DNA of 25,951 nt from positions 1-25,951 of the IMG/VR virus record IMGVR_UViG_3300037189_025743; one strand, written 5' to 3'. The notes beneath the pieces are model-generated. The model was not told the DNA's origin. It searched no databases and saw only the letters and a list, made by a program, of their open reading frames with translations. A program made the position numbers and the translations under genes. Within the stretch, counting starts at the first letter, position 1; each line of letters opens with the position of its first letter. This DNA comes from a virus. Shown here in pieces: positions 680-24,600 of the stretch.

Positions 680-1450
680 TTAACTTAACACTCTATCCGC
701 TGCCTCATGTAGATCCGCTGTTAAACGTGTTGCACCTTTTGCAACCACTTGCACGACTTGCTCGCCCCTGCTATTCTGACCAATATTTAATTTAGCCGCG
801 TACTCCGGTGTTACCGCCGTAAGCACCCTCTCCCTTACCAAATCCTTCACCTCTTCAAATTCATTGACCTGAAGAATTTTCATAAGTGTTCTGATGCCGT
901 CACGGTTAATACCAGCTTGCTGCATTTTTGTATGCAAAAGTGAGACAAACTTTTGAGTAGCTTTTTCACTTTCAGAAACTTGCTTGAAGTTGAGCGGTTT
1001 GTCTTCTACGTTGCGTTGCTGCTTGTCATATAAAGACAACCCAAACTGATTACCGAATGTCATAAAAGCGCGTTTCATTGCATCGGTGGCCGCTTCCTTG
1101 ATGGCGGATTCGTGGGCCTGTCCAAAATCGACATCAATACCATGTCCGGCGCCAACGCCGTCACGAAACGTTCCGCTCGTGGTAATGCGAACGGTAGCAA
1201 TATAGGATACGCCCCAGCCGTCTTTTTTGGCTTGTCCAACCTTTCGTTCGCGCTCGGAAACACACTTAATGTCACGCAGCTCCTGATCCCAACATCCGTA
1301 GCCAAATATACGGTTGGCCTCGCTAATCACATGCCAGCCTTCCACGTAAGACAGTGTGCGACCGCTCTGGTCCCTCGTTTTTACGGCTTGAACAGAGAGC
1401 GGCTGACTTAGCTCTTGAATTTGGTCCACACTAAAAGCATTTGGATTCAT
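680..1450 (-). CDS. Rad52/Rad22-family single-strand annealing protein
   Basis: This 256-residue protein carries the Rad52/Rad22 annealing domain in its first 145 residues. Visible family marks are SYVEGWHVISEANRIFGYGCW (about 34-54, abbreviated YVEGWH...FGYGCW), then the acidic strand-turn HGIDVDFG, KEAATDAMKRAF (118-129) and FGNQFGLSLYDK (132-143). These proteins coat single-stranded DNA and anneal complementary strands; in phages they replace Red-beta or RecT during replication-linked recombination. Residues 150-256 are a variable tail without a recognised motif. The ATG at 1450 is preceded by AGGAG, but about 17 nt away. The coiled-coil gene follows after 47 bp. The gene upstream on this strand is more than 550 bp away, so this pair probably has its own promoter, which I could not identify. 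Confidence 0.88.
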   Translation of the reverse strand: MNPNAFSVDQIQELSQPLSVQAVKTRDQSGRTLSYVEGWHVISEANRIFGYGCWDQELRDIKCVSERERKVGQAKKDGWGVSYIATVRITTSGTFRDGVGAGHGIDVDFGQAHESAIKEAATDAMKRAFMTFGNQFGLSLYDKQQRNVEDKPLNFKQVSESEKATQKFVSLLHTKMQQAGINRDGIRTLMKILQVNEFEEVKDLVRERVLTAVTPEYAAKLNIGQNSRGEQVVQVVAKGATRLTADLHEAADRVLS

Positions 1451-2073: not shown

Positions 2074-2271
2074 ACTTCTAGCGGTTGCGATGTGTCGATT
2101 CTTGGTTCTCATTCTTTGTTTCTCCTTGTTGATTAACTGCATTTTTGCCTTCAGCCTCTCGGCTTCGTAATCTGGTCGCCGTTCCTGCATTTGCCTTAAG
2201 GCCTCCTGGTAGCCAGGAGCCTCAAGCTCTGGAAATCTCTTAAAAATTTTACTCCAGTTAGGTGCTGTCAT
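2008..2271 (-). CDS. Small basic protein coupled to the helicase gene
   Basis: This 87-residue protein has its ATG overlapping the TGA of the helicase gene in an ATGA motif (2268-2271), so it is probably translated by coupling. It is rich in Lys, Arg, Glu and Gln, with one helical stretch around residues 20-55 (EALRQMQERRPDYEAERLKA and on) and a Lys/Arg-rich C-terminus ending NKGRRKKG, which suggests nucleic-acid or protein binding. I do not recognise the family. As the last gene of the initiator-helicase operon it may be a replication accessory factor, but that is inferred from position alone. Confidence 0.7.
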   Translation of the reverse strand: MTAPNWSKIFKRFPELEAPGYQEALRQMQERRPDYEAERLKAKMQLINKEKQRMRTKNRHIATARSLVAADNANSLFSANKGRRKKG

Positions 2272-3704
2272 CTCAGTAAGTTGCTACCCCAGACAACAGA
2301 GCTTTGTAGATCTATGCAACACTGCAGCGTACCGCATTCTCCATGCCTGTTTTTAGCAACAGAAACGGCCAGCTCGTATTTATCTTTTCCCCTGTCATAG
2401 TAATGTGGTCGAAGGAGAAACATGACAATATCCGCATCTTCTTCAATTCTACCGGAAGCGCGGAGGTCTGACATATTTGGCATTTTATCGGTCCTATTCT
2501 CCACGCCCCTGTTAACTTGACTCAACAAGAAAATGTCTATACCTGTACTTGTTCCGAGCCTTTTCAAAGCTTTTGTAACATGGCCAATATTAGATGCCTC
2601 CGTGTTTTGAGCATCACCAGAGCAGCCCTCTATAAGTTGCAGGTAATCAATAAAAACAGCTGAAAGATTTTTTCTAGTCTTAGCAAGAAGTTTTATTTTT
2701 GCTGAAATACTTTTAATGGTTTCAGATTCATCAAAGACATGCAATCTTTTAATCAGCCTGGAGTTCTGGTAACCTTCAAGCCTCGTCCTTTGGGCCGACG
2801 TGTAATTCCTTAGCCTCAAATTGTGGGATCGAATTGGATCGGTAAGTTCTCCCGAAGAACGAAGGCTCATGTAGTCAAGGCAAGCGATTGATTTATACTG
2901 AATCTGTTTTTTTGACATTTCTAAACTAAAAAAAGCAACATCACAGTGTATATCGGCTAACACGGTTGCAAGGTAAATTGCAAATGTAGTCTTGCCCATG
3001 CCGGGCCTTCCCGCTAGCACCACCAGGCGACCAGAGTACGGTGAATCCCTTTTTGCAATTCCACCCTGTATTGCATCGTCAAGCACGCTAAGGCCGGTCG
3101 GGATTACAATATCCTTGGGTAAAGGTTGAAGGGCTTCTTCAATAGAAGATTCCCAGTCGTCGTCCCTTTTATCAAGAGTTGAAGCGCTATACCATATTTC
3201 CTGCTGCCTCTCTATTAAAGATGGTATGCTTTCTTCAAATACCTTTTGATCGGGAGTGCTAGTAAGGGCTAAAGCAATCTCCTCTGCATTAGCCTTAAGA
3301 CTTGTTCTTGCACATTTCAACCTCCAAACAGGAACAATGGAATACAAAGATTCAATACTAAAAAACATTGAAGGGGACTCGGCAACCTCTTGGATGTACT
3401 GACAATCATCTTGATGCCCCATAGATAGAAGTAACTTTTCTGCCATCACGGCAATACTGCCAGGCACCACCAGGGAAGATTTGACTGAATCAAGCGCAAT
3501 CTTTTTAATTACGTGAAACAATGCTTTCCGATGGTTTCCAGTAAACCACTCTTGATTAACCTGTGTTGCAATATCACAAAGCTCAGCTGTAGAACCTTGT
3601 TCACCTTCAAGATAAAAGATGCACGTAGAGAGAAAAGAGTCTTGTATCTCGCTGGTATCCCAGGTATTCATCTGGGACAGGATTGCAAAATTTCCTTCGC
3701 TCAT
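2268..3704 (-). CDS. dnaB: Replicative DNA helicase, DnaB type
   Basis: This 478-residue protein has the two-domain DnaB plan: a helical N-terminal domain (about 15-180) and a RecA-like C-terminal domain (about 200-478). Visible motifs are Walker A AGRPGMGKTT (231-240), the SLEM motif with the catalytic Glu (260-263), Walker B AVFIDYLQL (349-357), the H3 loop LLSQVNRGVENR (393-404), the DLRASGRIEEDAD motif (413-425), and KNRHG (451-455), the arginine-finger region. It would unwind the fork ahead of host polymerase and bind the host primase. Its ATG directly follows the TAA of the initiator gene, so the pair resembles the initiator-plus-own-helicase arrangement of P22 genes 18 and 12 rather than the lambda O-P loader system. 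The N-terminal domain is less conserved than the motor domain. Confidence 0.95.
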   Translation of the reverse strand: MSEGNFAILSQMNTWDTSEIQDSFLSTCIFYLEGEQGSTAELCDIATQVNQEWFTGNHRKALFHVIKKIALDSVKSSLVVPGSIAVMAEKLLLSMGHQDDCQYIQEVAESPSMFFSIESLYSIVPVWRLKCARTSLKANAEEIALALTSTPDQKVFEESIPSLIERQQEIWYSASTLDKRDDDWESSIEEALQPLPKDIVIPTGLSVLDDAIQGGIAKRDSPYSGRLVVLAGRPGMGKTTFAIYLATVLADIHCDVAFFSLEMSKKQIQYKSIACLDYMSLRSSGELTDPIRSHNLRLRNYTSAQRTRLEGYQNSRLIKRLHVFDESETIKSISAKIKLLAKTRKNLSAVFIDYLQLIEGCSGDAQNTEASNIGHVTKALKRLGTSTGIDIFLLSQVNRGVENRTDKMPNMSDLRASGRIEEDADIVMFLLRPHYYDRGKDKYELAVSVAKNRHGECGTLQCCIDLQSSVVWGSNLLR

Positions 3705-4520
3705 TTAATTTAGTGTGTAGTTAATTGGTGACATCGCGGGTTTACCTTGGTTTCCCGCTTTGGCTACACCATTCTCCTGTCCCAGCTTGTTAATAGTTTC
3801 CTTGTGCCCAGCAAAACCAAGCGACTGCCAATTTTTCTCTGCTACATATTCGCAATAAAGCTTTAAGGTTCCAGTGCTCTTGGCATACTCAAGAGCACGC
3901 ATGGTGGAACTTGTAAGTTCAGGTCGAAGCTTGTGTTTTTTTTCTCTGTTGTCAAGCCATTTAAGCAAATGCTCGCGGTAGGGCTGCAACCACTCGGGCA
4001 GCTCGATGGCTGCTGGCTTCGGCTTCTGCGTGGTTCGCCTGGGGGGCAGTGGGGGGTTTTCTTCTAGATGGTTTTCTTCTAATGGTTTTCTTTCTAATGG
4101 TCTTCTATTGCGTCCGGGTTTCCCGGCGTCCGGTTTTCCCGGACACTGGTTTCCCGGCGTCCGGTTTTCCCGGACGCTGGCTGTGGCTTCTGCCGCAGGG
4201 GCCAACGAAGCCACAGCACTCGGATCCGGCCTATCGGTGACGCTGTAATGCTCGCCAACTATCTGGCCTGCTGGGTTCCTGTTTTTTACATTTACCAAAT
4301 ACCCAAAACATCTCAATTCAGAGAGGCCCGACAAAACCGCATCTCTACCCTCGGTTCCATGTTCAATAATCCAGGCTCTCGTAAACTTAAAACCCTTGCT
4401 GTGCGAAAGACAAACAGCAAGGATACCCTTGGCCTTGTAGCTAAGGCGCTTATCCCTCAAGGCGTCATTAAGAACAATTGTAAAACTGTTACCAGCGCCG
4501 TTGTTTTCAAAGCTTTCCAT
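3705..4520 (-). CDS. Phage replication initiator, winged-helix N-terminal domain (lambda O-like role)
   Basis: This 271-residue protein begins with a winged-helix domain of the kind common in phage initiators: FTIVLNDALRDKRLSYKAKG (13-32), then a GRDAVLSGLSELRCFGYL helix-wing segment (57-74). Residues about 113-155 form a low-complexity Pro/Gly/Arg/Glu linker (PGNQCPGKPDAGKPGRN, LERKPLEENHLEENPP), encoded by the DNA repeats listed separately. The C-terminal part (about 175-245, LPEWLQPYREHLLKWLDNRE onward) is a helical domain that probably contacts the helicase. Family knowledge says such proteins bind repeated sites at the origin and recruit DnaB. Here the helicase gene follows immediately. 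An AGGAG lies about 30 nt before the ATG, too far to be a usual binding site. Confidence 0.82.
   Translation of the reverse strand: MESFENNGAGNSFTIVLNDALRDKRLSYKAKGILAVCLSHSKGFKFTRAWIIEHGTEGRDAVLSGLSELRCFGYLVNVKNRNPAGQIVGEHYSVTDRPDPSAVASLAPAAEATASVRENRTPGNQCPGKPDAGKPGRNRRPLERKPLEENHLEENPPLPPRRTTQKPKPAAIELPEWLQPYREHLLKWLDNREKKHKLRPELTSSTMRALEYAKSTGTLKLYCEYVAEKNWQSLGFAGHKETINKLGQENGVAKAGNQGKPAMSPINYTLN
4057..4110. repeat. T-rich tandem repeats, candidate DNA unwinding element
   Basis: Three near-identical 14-15-bp units start at 4057, 4072 and 4086 (TTTTCTTCTA followed by GATGG or ATGG, one with an extra T), then a degenerate fourth at 4101. The stretch is AT-rich and strongly strand-biased (pyrimidines on the + strand). 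It adjoins the iterons on the side downstream in the direction of initiator transcription, as the AT-rich region does in the lambda ori. Confidence 0.65.
4112..4175. repeat. Four origin-like iterons
   Basis: The core TTTCCCGG occurs at 4119, 4135, 4150 and 4166, giving spacings of 16, 15 and 16 bp. A 28-bp block is repeated exactly at 4117-4144 and 4148-4175. Units two (4128-4144) and four (4159-4175) are perfect dyads, GTCCGG-TTTTC-CCGGAC. Units one and three are imperfect copies ending in CCGGCG. Dyad-bearing iterons inside the initiator gene are the hallmark of lambdoid origins. Confidence 0.75.
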
Positions 4521-4560: not shown

Positions 4561-4752
4561 TTAGTTGTGGTCAACAATTGCTGCGTTACCATCTTTAATG
4601 GCAGTGCGGCGAAGTTCTGAATTTTTCCTTGAAATCATGGCTTCAACAACCAGATCTACGATATGTTGTGACATTGGGCGATGTGAGGGTTTTGTATTTC
4701 TCAGTTGTGCAACAACTTCATCCGAAAGCGAGATTGAAAACCTGGGTGCCAT
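4561..4752 (-). CDS. Small ribbon-helix-helix regulator (Arc/CopG-like)
   Basis: From the ATG at 4752 this is a 63-residue protein. Residues 3-9 (PRFSISL) look like the DNA-contacting beta strand, 10-19 (SDEVVAQLRN) like helix A, and 27-40 (MSQHIVDLVVEAMI) like helix B of a ribbon-helix-helix dimer; a short basic tail follows. A longer reading frame starts with TTG at 4821, but that codon lies upstream of the promoter found at 4808-4780, so the ATG with a leader of about 20 nt is preferred. As first gene of the initiator-helicase operon it could repress its own promoter, whose spacer holds a small palindrome. No Shine-Dalgarno sequence is present. Confidence 0.7.
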   Translation of the reverse strand: MAPRFSISLSDEVVAQLRNTKPSHRPMSQHIVDLVVEAMISRKNSELRRTAIKDGNAAIVDHN

Positions 4753-4779
4753 TGTGAAAGTGAAGCGCTGTGCCACTGC

Positions 4780-4808
4780 ATCATACTGCTGCGATGTGCA
4801 GCGGTCAA
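4780..4808 (-). promoter_or_regulatory. Sigma-70-type promoter for the replication operon
   Basis: On the minus strand the -35 is TTGACC (4808-4803), the spacer is exactly 17 bp, and the -10 is TATGAT (4785-4780). Transcription would start near 4773, about 21 nt before the ATG at 4752. The spacer holds the inverted repeat GCTGC-ACATC-GCAGC, a possible operator. Confidence 0.7.
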
Positions 4809-4998
4809 CCCCTGACAGCAATCGATCCCTGATGGCCCTCGAACGCCTGGGGCGGGCAAGTGGTCGCTGGGAGTCGTTTGGCGCGGCTCAGGCCCTGCTA
4901 GCGGCCTCTCAGCTGGTGTTGGTGGCCGGGTTGGGTCGAACGTGCGCCAGTGTCTGGGCGGTTCGCAGCACATACGGGCCTATGCGTTCAGTAGTTTG

Positions 4999-5448: not shown

Positions 5449-6447
5449 GTGGCTGCAAGCAGTACAGCACCAATGAGTCTTGATGATTACCTGAAAGACA
5501 TCGCTCGCGTTCCCCTGTTAACAGGGGACGAAGAAATAGTGCTTGGGAATAGGGTGCAAGATATGATAAAAATCTTGAGGGAAAACGGTTTAAGTGAAAG
5601 CATCTCGCTAAATAATTTTGTTAGTTTCACGAAAGACTTGCGGCCAGAGCAAAGACGGGTGGTGGAAAAAGGGTTAAAAGCAAGGGATCGCATGATCTCA
5701 GCAAACATGAGACTCGTGGCTGCAGTCGCCAATAAGGCAAGATCGATGTGTGCTCACTTGTCAATCGAAGATTTGATGCAAGAAGGTGCCATTGGTCTTG
5801 CTAGAGCTGTTGAAAAGTTTGAACCACAGAAAGGGTATAAGTTTAGTACATACGCCTATTGGTGGATAAGACAGGGAATTACGAGAGCCTGGGAAAACCA
5901 GGAAAACACCATAAGAATTCCAGGTAATATTCAAAAAGCAGCCAGATTGATTGAGAAAACCAGGGTAAGTCTATCAAAAACACTTAACAGGGAGCCGACT
6001 ATTCCACAAATTGCCGAAGAGATGGGCGAAAAACCGGAACGAATTAAAAGAATTATTTTACAAAGGGTGAAAGTGTTTTCCTTTGATCGTGATTCTTGCG
6101 GGCTTAGTCATGATGTTTTTCCTGGGAGGGACACTTTCATGGATTTCCTTAAGTACAACTGCTTTGCCACCCTTGCTCAAGAGGAAGAATCTGAAAGTAT
6201 TAAAGAGATCCGTCGCATAGAAAATATTGCAATGACTATTGTCAATGCACTTCCAGAGCAAGATCAGCGGCTAATCAGACAAAGGTATGGAATAGGTGAA
6301 CGCCAGCTAACAATCAAAGAGATAGCGGAGAAAAGTGGGGTAAGCCAACGACGCATTAAAGATAAGTGCAACGAAGTTATGAGTGGAGTCGTGTTTACAG
6401 CCAAGGTATTTGCGCCTGAGGCTTTTGCCAAGGCTAAGCTTTCGTAG
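5449..6447 (+). CDS. RpoD-like sigma-70 family RNA polymerase sigma factor
   Basis: The product is 332 residues from GTG 5449, or 324 from ATG 5473; neither start has a Shine-Dalgarno sequence. Domains in order are region 1.2 (about 9-40, SLDDYLKDIARVPLLTGDEE), region 2 (about 77-158, with SIEDLMQEGAIGLARAVEKF and YKFSTYAYWWIRQGITRA), region 3 (about 165-230) and region 4 (about 262-315). The region 2.4 residues that read the -10 in E. coli sigma-70 are conserved (W138, W139, Q142, T145 here). The region 4.2 recognition helix is not: where E. coli has T-R-E-R-I-R-Q this protein has S-Q-R-R-I-K-D (299-305), so -35 recognition is probably altered. There is no region 1.1, as in cyanobacterial group 2 factors. 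Position suggests a middle- or late-gene switch; a captured host gene is the alternative origin. Confidence 0.93.
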   Translation: MAASSTAPMSLDDYLKDIARVPLLTGDEEIVLGNRVQDMIKILRENGLSESISLNNFVSFTKDLRPEQRRVVEKGLKARDRMISANMRLVAAVANKARSMCAHLSIEDLMQEGAIGLARAVEKFEPQKGYKFSTYAYWWIRQGITRAWENQENTIRIPGNIQKAARLIEKTRVSLSKTLNREPTIPQIAEEMGEKPERIKRIILQRVKVFSFDRDSCGLSHDVFPGRDTFMDFLKYNCFATLAQEEESESIKEIRRIENIAMTIVNALPEQDQRLIRQRYGIGERQLTIKEIAEKSGVSQRRIKDKCNEVMSGVVFTAKVFAPEAFAKAKLS

Positions 6448-21622: not shown

Positions 21623-24600
21623 CAGCTAAGGCCTACCGCACGCCTAGCGCTTGGGCTGTTGCGATAACGCTTATGAGCAAGCTCGGCGCCGCGTTGCGCA
21701 GACTCCCTGCCGATTTGCTCAGCTTCTTCGCGAGTGACATAATCGACACTCCTAATTCTTACTGTCTCAAACTTCACGTCGATGGTTGCATTCATGCTGT
21801 CGCCTACTGTATCACCTGCAGACTTTAGATACGGCACGGCCAGGGCTGGCCCGCTGCGCCGATAGGGCACTTCCATTTCCGGGGTTGTAGCGGCTGCAGC
21901 TGAGCGCTGGTAGGGCACTTCCATTTCCGGGGTTGTAGCGGCTGCAGCTGAGCGCTGGTAGGGCACTTCCATGCCGCTGGCATCGACCCCCAGCCGGCCG
22001 TCAGGACCGCGCTTGAGGGGCATGATCGCTTCGGGGCCAGCCTCGCCCATCTCACCCATCTTCGTAACGCCGCCATCAGCGAATTGGAACAGGGTGGGAG
22101 AGCTGACGATCGAGTTGGTGAAGGTGCCGCCCTTGGCGAAGGCGGCGGTGCCATTAGCAAAGTAGGCGCCGTTTGCCGCAAAATTAGCACTAAGTGGCGT
22201 GACCGAGAAATCCCCCCAGTTAGATGGTGTCGCTTGAGCAGAGCCCGCCGAACCGCCACTACTCCCCGCAACCGCCCCAAGCGCCTTGAGGATTGTCTGT
22301 AAAACAATCATTGCCATCTGTTTTGCTATAATTTCAGCCGCCATACTGAGAAATGCCTCGCCAGTGCTTTTGAAGAAAGAGGCGAGAGCCTCTTGGGCTG
22401 ACATCGATCCGCTAATCAGGCCCTGGAAGGCTTGGGTAAATGCATTGCCGATGCCGTCAGCAACTGTTATCGCTATATTACCTACATTAGTGAGTTCGGT
22501 AAGCTCTTCCTTTAGCTTGCCAATTTTTTCATCAATTTTTTCGCTGGGGGGCATGACAGACTTTTTGGCCACGCCCCTAGCTTCCTCTACGACCGTCGCC
22601 GCCCGCCCTTCCACCTTGTCGGCCAACTGATTCCTGAGATCGAGAATTGCCTGAAGTTTAGCTCTTAACTCTTCTTGTTTTTTGGTATCCTCAGTTGTTG
22701 CAACAAGGCTTGCCAATGTGGCTTCGGTCAAAGCAAAAGTAGAGTCAACAAGGCTTGGGTTCAGCTTGAGTCTTTCCAGCTCGCTCCTAACAGCTTGATT
22801 GGTACTGATCGTAAGGCCTGTTAAAACGCTGTTCAGGTCTCTTCTGATCTCAAGGATGCGCAACTCGCCTTCAATTATTTCCGGGGCAACCCCTTCAAGC
22901 GCTAGTCGATTGCGCTCTTTACGTTTTTGAATTTCAAGCTCAAGTTCTCGATTTTGCTCTGTGTATTGCAGTATCGGAGCTAGGGTTTGCTGTTCAAGTG
23001 CAAAGCTGGCAGCCTCAGACTGAACAGCAAGCCTTTGCCTATCGGCAGCGGTGGCGCCTACGGTAGCTGCTTTAGTTTTTTCCACCAACTGAAGGTATTG
23101 CTGTAGTAGGTCATTGATACCAACAAGCCGTGGTGCGCCTGGAAGCTCAGGCATAGTCATGGTGCCCTTGAACACTGGAGCAGCGCCAACAGAAGTGGCC
23201 TGGCCGGCCCCAGCAGTGAGCCCCCTAACCATCCTTCCGTTCTTCCTGCTGAAATAGCCAACACCTGGCTGAAGGTAGGTGTCTATGTCTGGCTTGATGC
23301 CAGATACCACGCCTTGCACCTGCCCCCGTACCAGCATGTCGGCGCTTCGTCGTGCTGCTGCGGTTTCCCGGTTGCGTTGCAGCGCTCCGTTTGTTCCAGG
23401 TGAGTTAATATCAATACTGTTATGCGCCCCAAACGTGCGCCCAGAGGCATCGAACCTCCCTATCGTTTGTCCGCCAACAACTGACTGCCCCATTTTCACT
23501 GCGGCGGCAACATGGCTATAGGTGGCTTCCAGCTTGTTACCCAGATCGTCTAAGAACTGAACTACAACGTAATTGCCATTGTTTCCGGCTTTATTTATTT
23601 CGGTTACAACGCCGTTGTGATAACTACGCATTATATTATTCAGTGCAACTGGCATGTCAGCTCCATTTTGCCCTGATGCGTCAAGCCTGCCACTAATAGA
23701 ACCGGGTAGCCTTGATGCACCAGTGCCATTAGTTGCCTGAACTGCTTGCCTGATGGCCGAAGCCTGGATAGCAGCATCATCTAGTCCGTTTTGCACTACA
23801 ATTTGCTTCTTCTTTTCCAGGTCGATTTCCACTTCGTAGCGATACTTGGCCATCGCTAAGCGATGATCCTCGGCTTGCACGGCATAATCGACAATCTGCC
23901 TCTCGATTTGAAGGCGAGCGCGAGAAACATCACGCGAAAATTCATCGCGCTGAATCGCCATCTGGGAAACTCGGTTTTCAACTTGGAGTTTGTAACGGCT
24001 AGCCTCTTGGTCTATTTTCTGTAGTTCTAGCTTGAGTTGTTTTTCGGCTTGCTGGAGATCGGCTTCGCCTTCGGCTCTGATACGCAGATAGTCTCTGGCG
24101 GCGTCAACCACTCCTTGGGCGATTGGATCCAGACCTGTGGATGCTTTCTGAAGCTGAAGGTCAAAAGCGTCGATTGCATTTTGCTGACGCTTCCTTTCAT
24201 TTTCAATAAGCTTTTGCTCAAGCTCCTGTCGCTTGCCAAATACCTGATCTTCAACAGAGCGGCGAAATTCGGTCGCCTCGCGCTCCATATCAATTACACG
24301 CTTGCGAAGACCGTAAACAGTTTCTTCAGTGCTTAGGCGAAGATCGATTCCGCTGCGCTCAAATGCTATGCCTTGTTGGATGATAGAGCGAGCTTTTTCG
24401 GTTTTTTCAATTGTTTTATCAAGTGCCTGCAGCTCTTGTTCTGGAGTAGGTTTTCCGCCTTTGACTGTGGTTGGCTTGGCAAGAGGTCTGTAAAACTCAG
24501 CTAAGGCGGTTCGCTGCTTAGCGGCCTCTTCTTTGCTTATCCCGCCAAGCAAAGGTCCGAACGTAGTTCCAATCTGCTCCCTGGAATCTATTCCAATCAA

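Follow-up and report, generated by a model that had tools for sequence, protein, structure and literature searches.

The region 4055-4177 is, with a probability of about 0.85, the theta replication origin of a phage, located within the stretch of the phage's initiator gene that codes for the linker. All coordinates refer to the window, the whole 25,951-bp stretch that was analysed, which corresponds to positions 2550-28500 of a 79,539-bp virus record whose ends are 123-bp direct terminal repeats (99.996% identical). The origin reading is supported because selection on the repeats at the DNA level, the relatives, a disordered linker, the adjacency of a helicase gene, and the precedent of pSK41 all point to it. 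The features of the locus are as follows.

2268-3704, minus strand: gene for a DnaB-type replicative helicase (PF03796, E 2.9e-55)
3705-4520, minus strand: replication initiator gene, 271 aa, with a winged-helix N-terminal domain, a repeat-coded disordered linker and a helical C-terminal domain (family searches and AlphaFold2)
4055-4108, minus strand: A/T-rich array (about 69% AT), four AGAA(G/A)ACC on the coding strand at 4099-4106, 4084-4091, 4070-4077 and 4055-4062 (sequence and relatives); proposed unwinding or helicase-entry element
4112-4177, minus strand: iteron array, four A-tract iterons, 68% GC (sequence; kept in relatives)
4128-4144, no strand: dyad 1, GTCCGG-TTTTC-CCGGAC (exact sequence match)
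4157-4177, no strand: dyad 2, perfect 8+5+8 palindrome GCGTCCGG-TTTTC-CCGGACGC (sequence; core GTCCGG-TTTTC-CCGGAC match at 4159)
4148-4180, minus strand: 33-bp repeat, first copy in coding order, read as VRENRTPGNQ (lag-31 self-comparison)
4117-4149, minus strand: 33-bp repeat, second copy in coding order, read as CPGKPDAGKPG (lag 31, 32/33 identical)

The repeats described in the original prediction were all found at this locus. The iteron TTTCCCGG was observed at 4119, 4135, 4150, and 4166, with the predicted 16-15-16 spacing, and at only one other site in the window (23364). In the 79.5-kb parent genome, TTTCCCGG comprised the four iterons and one other site, and its complement occurred once. 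The two perfect dyads were present as exact occurrences of GTCCGGTTTTCCCGGAC at 4128 and 4159, and the T-rich repeats, GGT(T/C)TTCT, for which a period of 14-15 bp had been claimed, occurred as four copies at 4055, 4070, 4084, and 4099 (spacing 15-14-15). The repeats sit about 340-465 bp into the initiator gene, in the part that codes for the disordered linker.

The initiator assignment was based on family searches, in which the 271-aa protein matched phrog_4707, 'replication initiation protein' (E 6e-17), together with other initiator and DnaD-like families and, weakly, phrog_678, 'O-like' (E 1e-3). A Pfam search of the protein gave no family matches at E up to 1. In the AlphaFold2 model, a winged helix at residues 18-94 (pLDDT about 90) was followed by a linker at about 100-170, which covers the repeat-coded residues and is predicted to be disordered (pLDDT mostly near 50 or below), and by C-terminal helices at 176-249. 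Structure comparison of the N-terminal domain returned the RepA N-terminal domains 4pql (Z 8.5), 4pt7 (8.0), and 5kbj (7.7) over 86 residues, tied with many unrelated winged helices. The N-terminal profile had no matches among the sequences of solved structures, and the family profile weakly matched the DnaD-like chain 2zc2 (E 0.15).

The helicase gene starts at the base right after the initiator stop codon, with no gap, and a P-loop gene of DnaB size followed the initiator in 11 of the 12 cyano-type loci examined. A Rad52-family annealing protein (680-1450, minus strand; PF04098, E 1e-36) is encoded downstream of the helicase gene. Just upstream of the initiator lies a small ORF (4561-4821, minus strand), ribbon-helix-helix-like by eye and with no convincing family match. 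Divergent from the replication operon, a phage-encoded RpoD-type sigma factor (5449-6447, plus strand) contains regions 1.2 to 4. The best phage matches of this sigma factor were the cyanophages S-CBS3 and KBS-S-2A, and a 1221-aa tail protein matched cyanophages only; on the strength of these protein matches, the host of the phage, which is represented by an IMG/VR contig, is likely cyanobacterial. A tape-measure-like gene in the window carries a 48-bp tandem repeat at 21856-21972 (PEMEVPYQRSAAAATT repeated), which was seen as secondary blastn matches.

At the scale of the genome, GC skew had been proposed as one of the checks. Plain cumulative GC skew followed gene orientation and was rejected as an uninformative origin signal. 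The GC3 skew of minus-strand genes was higher left of the locus than right of it (difference 0.11, Mann-Whitney p 1e-4, unadjusted), a switch that is consistent with an origin and is confounded by gene module, since late structural genes dominate one side. The best split was broad, at about 9-15 kb in parent-genome coordinates, and the candidate origin at 6.7 kb lay on its shoulder. In the parent genome, the initiator region was one of the highest-ranking repeat regions; the strongest was an unrelated array near 54.6 kb, outside the window (L017:14632-14892), consisting of a long degenerate run of TGTAACC heptamers followed by GTGTGGC repeats. We take this run to resemble the heptamer repeats of cyanobacteria. 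It was considered as an alternative origin and set aside on its sequence, a heptamer run without dyads.

The repeats might instead be operators through which the initiator represses either the gene that encodes it or the initiator-helicase operon, with the origin elsewhere; we consider this unlikely. Winged-helix proteins often autoregulate, the sites lie within the operon, and the array at 54.6 kb is another repeat array in the parent genome, but that array lacks the dyads, and the sites are not at a promoter but some 340-465 bp inside the gene. Nor would an operator be expected to come with a second A/T-rich array at a fixed distance. Finally, the precedent of pSK41 is an origin: its rep gene carries four Rep boxes centrally, and in the protein the N-terminal domain binds the Rep boxes, the linker is dispensable, and the C-terminal domain contacts primase (PMC5703833).

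To return to the origin reading, the searches for relatives used only the N-terminal domain, so that neither the repeats nor the linker biased retrieval. Out-of-frame repeats scoring 23-32 were found in 16 of 20 cyano-type genes, each score exceeding the best of 40 shuffles of the same gene. Among 64 genes, many of them closely related and with counts that are not independent, dyad density was 13.8/kb in the linkers, compared with 3.6 elsewhere and 5.5 in shuffled linkers. The palindromic arms varied by clade (GTCCGG, GGTGGACT, GACTGG, GTGG), and the A-tract centre was constant. Loss of the repeats in close relatives, named beforehand as grounds for giving up the prediction, was looked for, and the repeats were kept. 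In L029 and L038, the dyad rule used detected no dyads, and no array motif was found. An exact dyad search of viral contigs gave one extra match (L012), a single copy in unrelated sequence that was dismissed as chance, and the first scan of the genome collection, with cyano-type patterns, found no relative and hence no prophage form. The bases that precede the A-tract co-varied with residues of the third helix: LDSL/IDSL occurred with TGG in 28 of 28 cases, and RDAV/RDAT mostly with CGG or CTG. The pattern hints that the third helix may read the iteron arm by a recognition code, but it is confounded by ancestry.

All 30 members searched matched both phrog_428 and phrog_4707, and Pfam assigned HTH_36 to 10 and PF07261 (DnaD-like) to 6 of these relatives. 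The C-terminal domains differed between groups while the N-terminal domain and the repeats were kept, as might be expected if the repeats were a partition or incompatibility site, or a recombination hot spot for exchange of the C-terminal domain, with the origin function lost or elsewhere. We regard this explanation as very improbable; modular exchange would be expected around an origin too, and the cyano-type loci keep the helicase gene adjacent.

The claim that the coding sequence here is shaped by an origin received strong support. The best out-of-frame repeat in the initiator coding sequence was the 33-bp repeat, 32/33 identical at a lag of 31 bp; since 31 is not divisible by 3, one DNA sequence is read in two frames and yields two peptides. 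It scored 30, whereas 300 synonymous-codon shuffles, which preserve the protein and its codon usage, reached 13 at most and 300 codon permutations 11. In the window phage and two relatives, conserved residues used identical codons in 83-96% of cases within the repeat zone versus 46-66% outside it (Fisher p 0.026, 7e-4, and 4e-6). Together, the two-frame repeat, the shuffles, and the codon conservation strongly support selection on the DNA, which is very hard to avoid as a conclusion. Relative L039 likewise reads one repeat as both PENPSDG and LKTRQTE. Inverted iterons were found in L025, L029, and L047, and such inversion in some cyano-type relatives replaced GKP by GFS or GFP in the peptide. 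The idea that a low-complexity Pro/Gly and Leu-Glu-Glu linker was duplicated for protein function, with the DNA repeats as a by-product, is hardly credible and already contradicted by sequence: many Firmicutes relatives do have 15-bp, in-frame spacing, and spacing alone cannot separate the two accounts, but the two-frame repeats here and in L039, the peptide-changing inversions in L025 and L047, and the excess codon conservation all stand against it. More generally, frame-shifted and inverted copies of one DNA sequence offer a clean means of showing that a coding region is shaped by an origin and not by the protein.

The origin layout was common to relatives from cyanophages, actinophages, Streptomyces elements, Firmicutes, and Bacteroidota: iterons come first, and an A-rich array begins about 8 nt after the last iteron core. 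The array was of the AGAANACC type in the cyano and actino relatives and of the TACTAA type in Firmicutes and Bacteroidota. In 18 cyano-type genes, AGAANACC was counted 45 times, against 11.7 expected from synonymous shuffles, in frames 0/2; in 30 Streptomyces genes, the count was 75 against 39.6, almost only in frame 1. TACTAA occurred 154 times in 43 mostly Gram-positive-type genes (39.8 expected). Gordonia, Arthrobacter, Microbacterium, and Streptomyces elements carried the same or nearly the same array element in other reading frames. These comparisons show a shared two-part DNA signature that several phyla have kept despite differences in the protein frame in which it is read. TP901-1 rep carries CTACTAAATACTAAT, and the DnaD recognition strand in oriC of B. 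subtilis is CTACTATTACTTCTACTA (PMC10201434); judged by sequence, the TACTAA array resembles this strand, a likeness that may serve as a lead. It is conceivable, although we hold it to be rather doubtful, that A-tract dyad iterons, a gap of about 8 nt, and a second array matched to the host group form a portable two-part origin grammar in phage and plasmid initiator genes of at least four bacterial phyla, in which the second array would be the engagement site of host-matched helicase-loading machinery.

Among known systems, the intragenic origins of the RepA_N and TP901-1 Rep kind provide the best explanation of the locus. The original prediction had called it a lambda-type origin, and the part of this that concerns layout stood: the comparative evidence gives good support to an origin that lies within the initiator gene and consists of dyad iterons and then an A/T-rich array. 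The lambda ori likewise has four dyad iterons with A-tracts, and then an A/T-rich tract, inside gene O (PMC7466680), so that an origin working like lambda ori in layout and order is supported. However, iteron spacing is 20-24 bp in lambda versus 15-16 here, and the loader gene P lies next to O in lambda, whereas the helicase gene is next here. With hhalign, no relation between the protein and lambda O was detected; the family profile had a probability of 0.1, weak evidence that comes from one lambda O sequence.

TP901-1 Rep, annotated as 'replication protein, experimental', matched in its N-terminal domain with an hhalign probability of 97 (E 1e-10, 84 columns, 35% identity). This protein and the phrog_428-phrog_186 group of lactococcal and staphylococcal phages have an N-terminal domain homologous to that of the window protein, and TP901-1 rep also places A-tract sites, followed by A/T-rich repeats, in its linker-coding part. 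Some relatives in the TP901-1 group have a DnaD-like (PF07261) C-terminal domain and a TACTAA-type array, whereas the window protein has a different C-terminal domain, a AGAANACC array, and DnaB directly next to it. In RepA_N iterons, inverted repeats converge on a poly-A tract (PMC7145576). The RepA_N plasmid origins of pSK41 and pTZ2162 share with the window a winged-helix N-terminal domain, A-tract inverted-repeat iterons, four centrally placed sites in rep, and an origin-coded linker (PMC7145576, PMC5703833). The window differs from them in belonging to a phage rather than a plasmid and in having a second conserved array, and RepA_N (PF06970) was matched neither in the window protein (E up to 1) nor in 30 relatives (0.01). 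The closest plasmid N-terminal domains, with up to 47% identity, belonged to winged-helix proteins of Streptomyces plasmids, which also have iterons and an AAGAA(C/G)ACC array in the linker; in these longer proteins, by contrast, the array is in another frame, and the iterons are often inverted (GFP/GYP, not GKP).

By analogy with pSK41, the A-tract dyads would be bound and bent by dimers of the N-terminal winged helix, the A/T-rich array beside them would open, and the C-terminal domain may position the DnaB helicase that the phage encodes in the next gene. A linker that is disordered and accommodates many different sequences allows the initiator to carry an origin in its coding DNA; with the origin inside the gene, each gene copy would bring its own cis site.

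Origins within the initiator gene are established in principle, with examples in other viruses and in plasmids; what appears to be new is the member from a cyanophage and the second array shared across phyla. A search of an open-access library yielded no cyanophage origin of replication, and the present locus provides a concrete origin candidate for a probable group of cyanobacterial siphoviruses. In an origin study of mycobacteriophage RepA, no repeats were found, and the site was guessed to lie in or beside repA (PMC7157519); reading the origin from the gene may help in such cases. The cross-phylum second element deserves experimental attention. Its conservation suggests how one initiator type may be matched to the helicase loading of different hosts, and if the two-part grammar is true, the origins of many uncharacterised phages could be readable from the gene alone.
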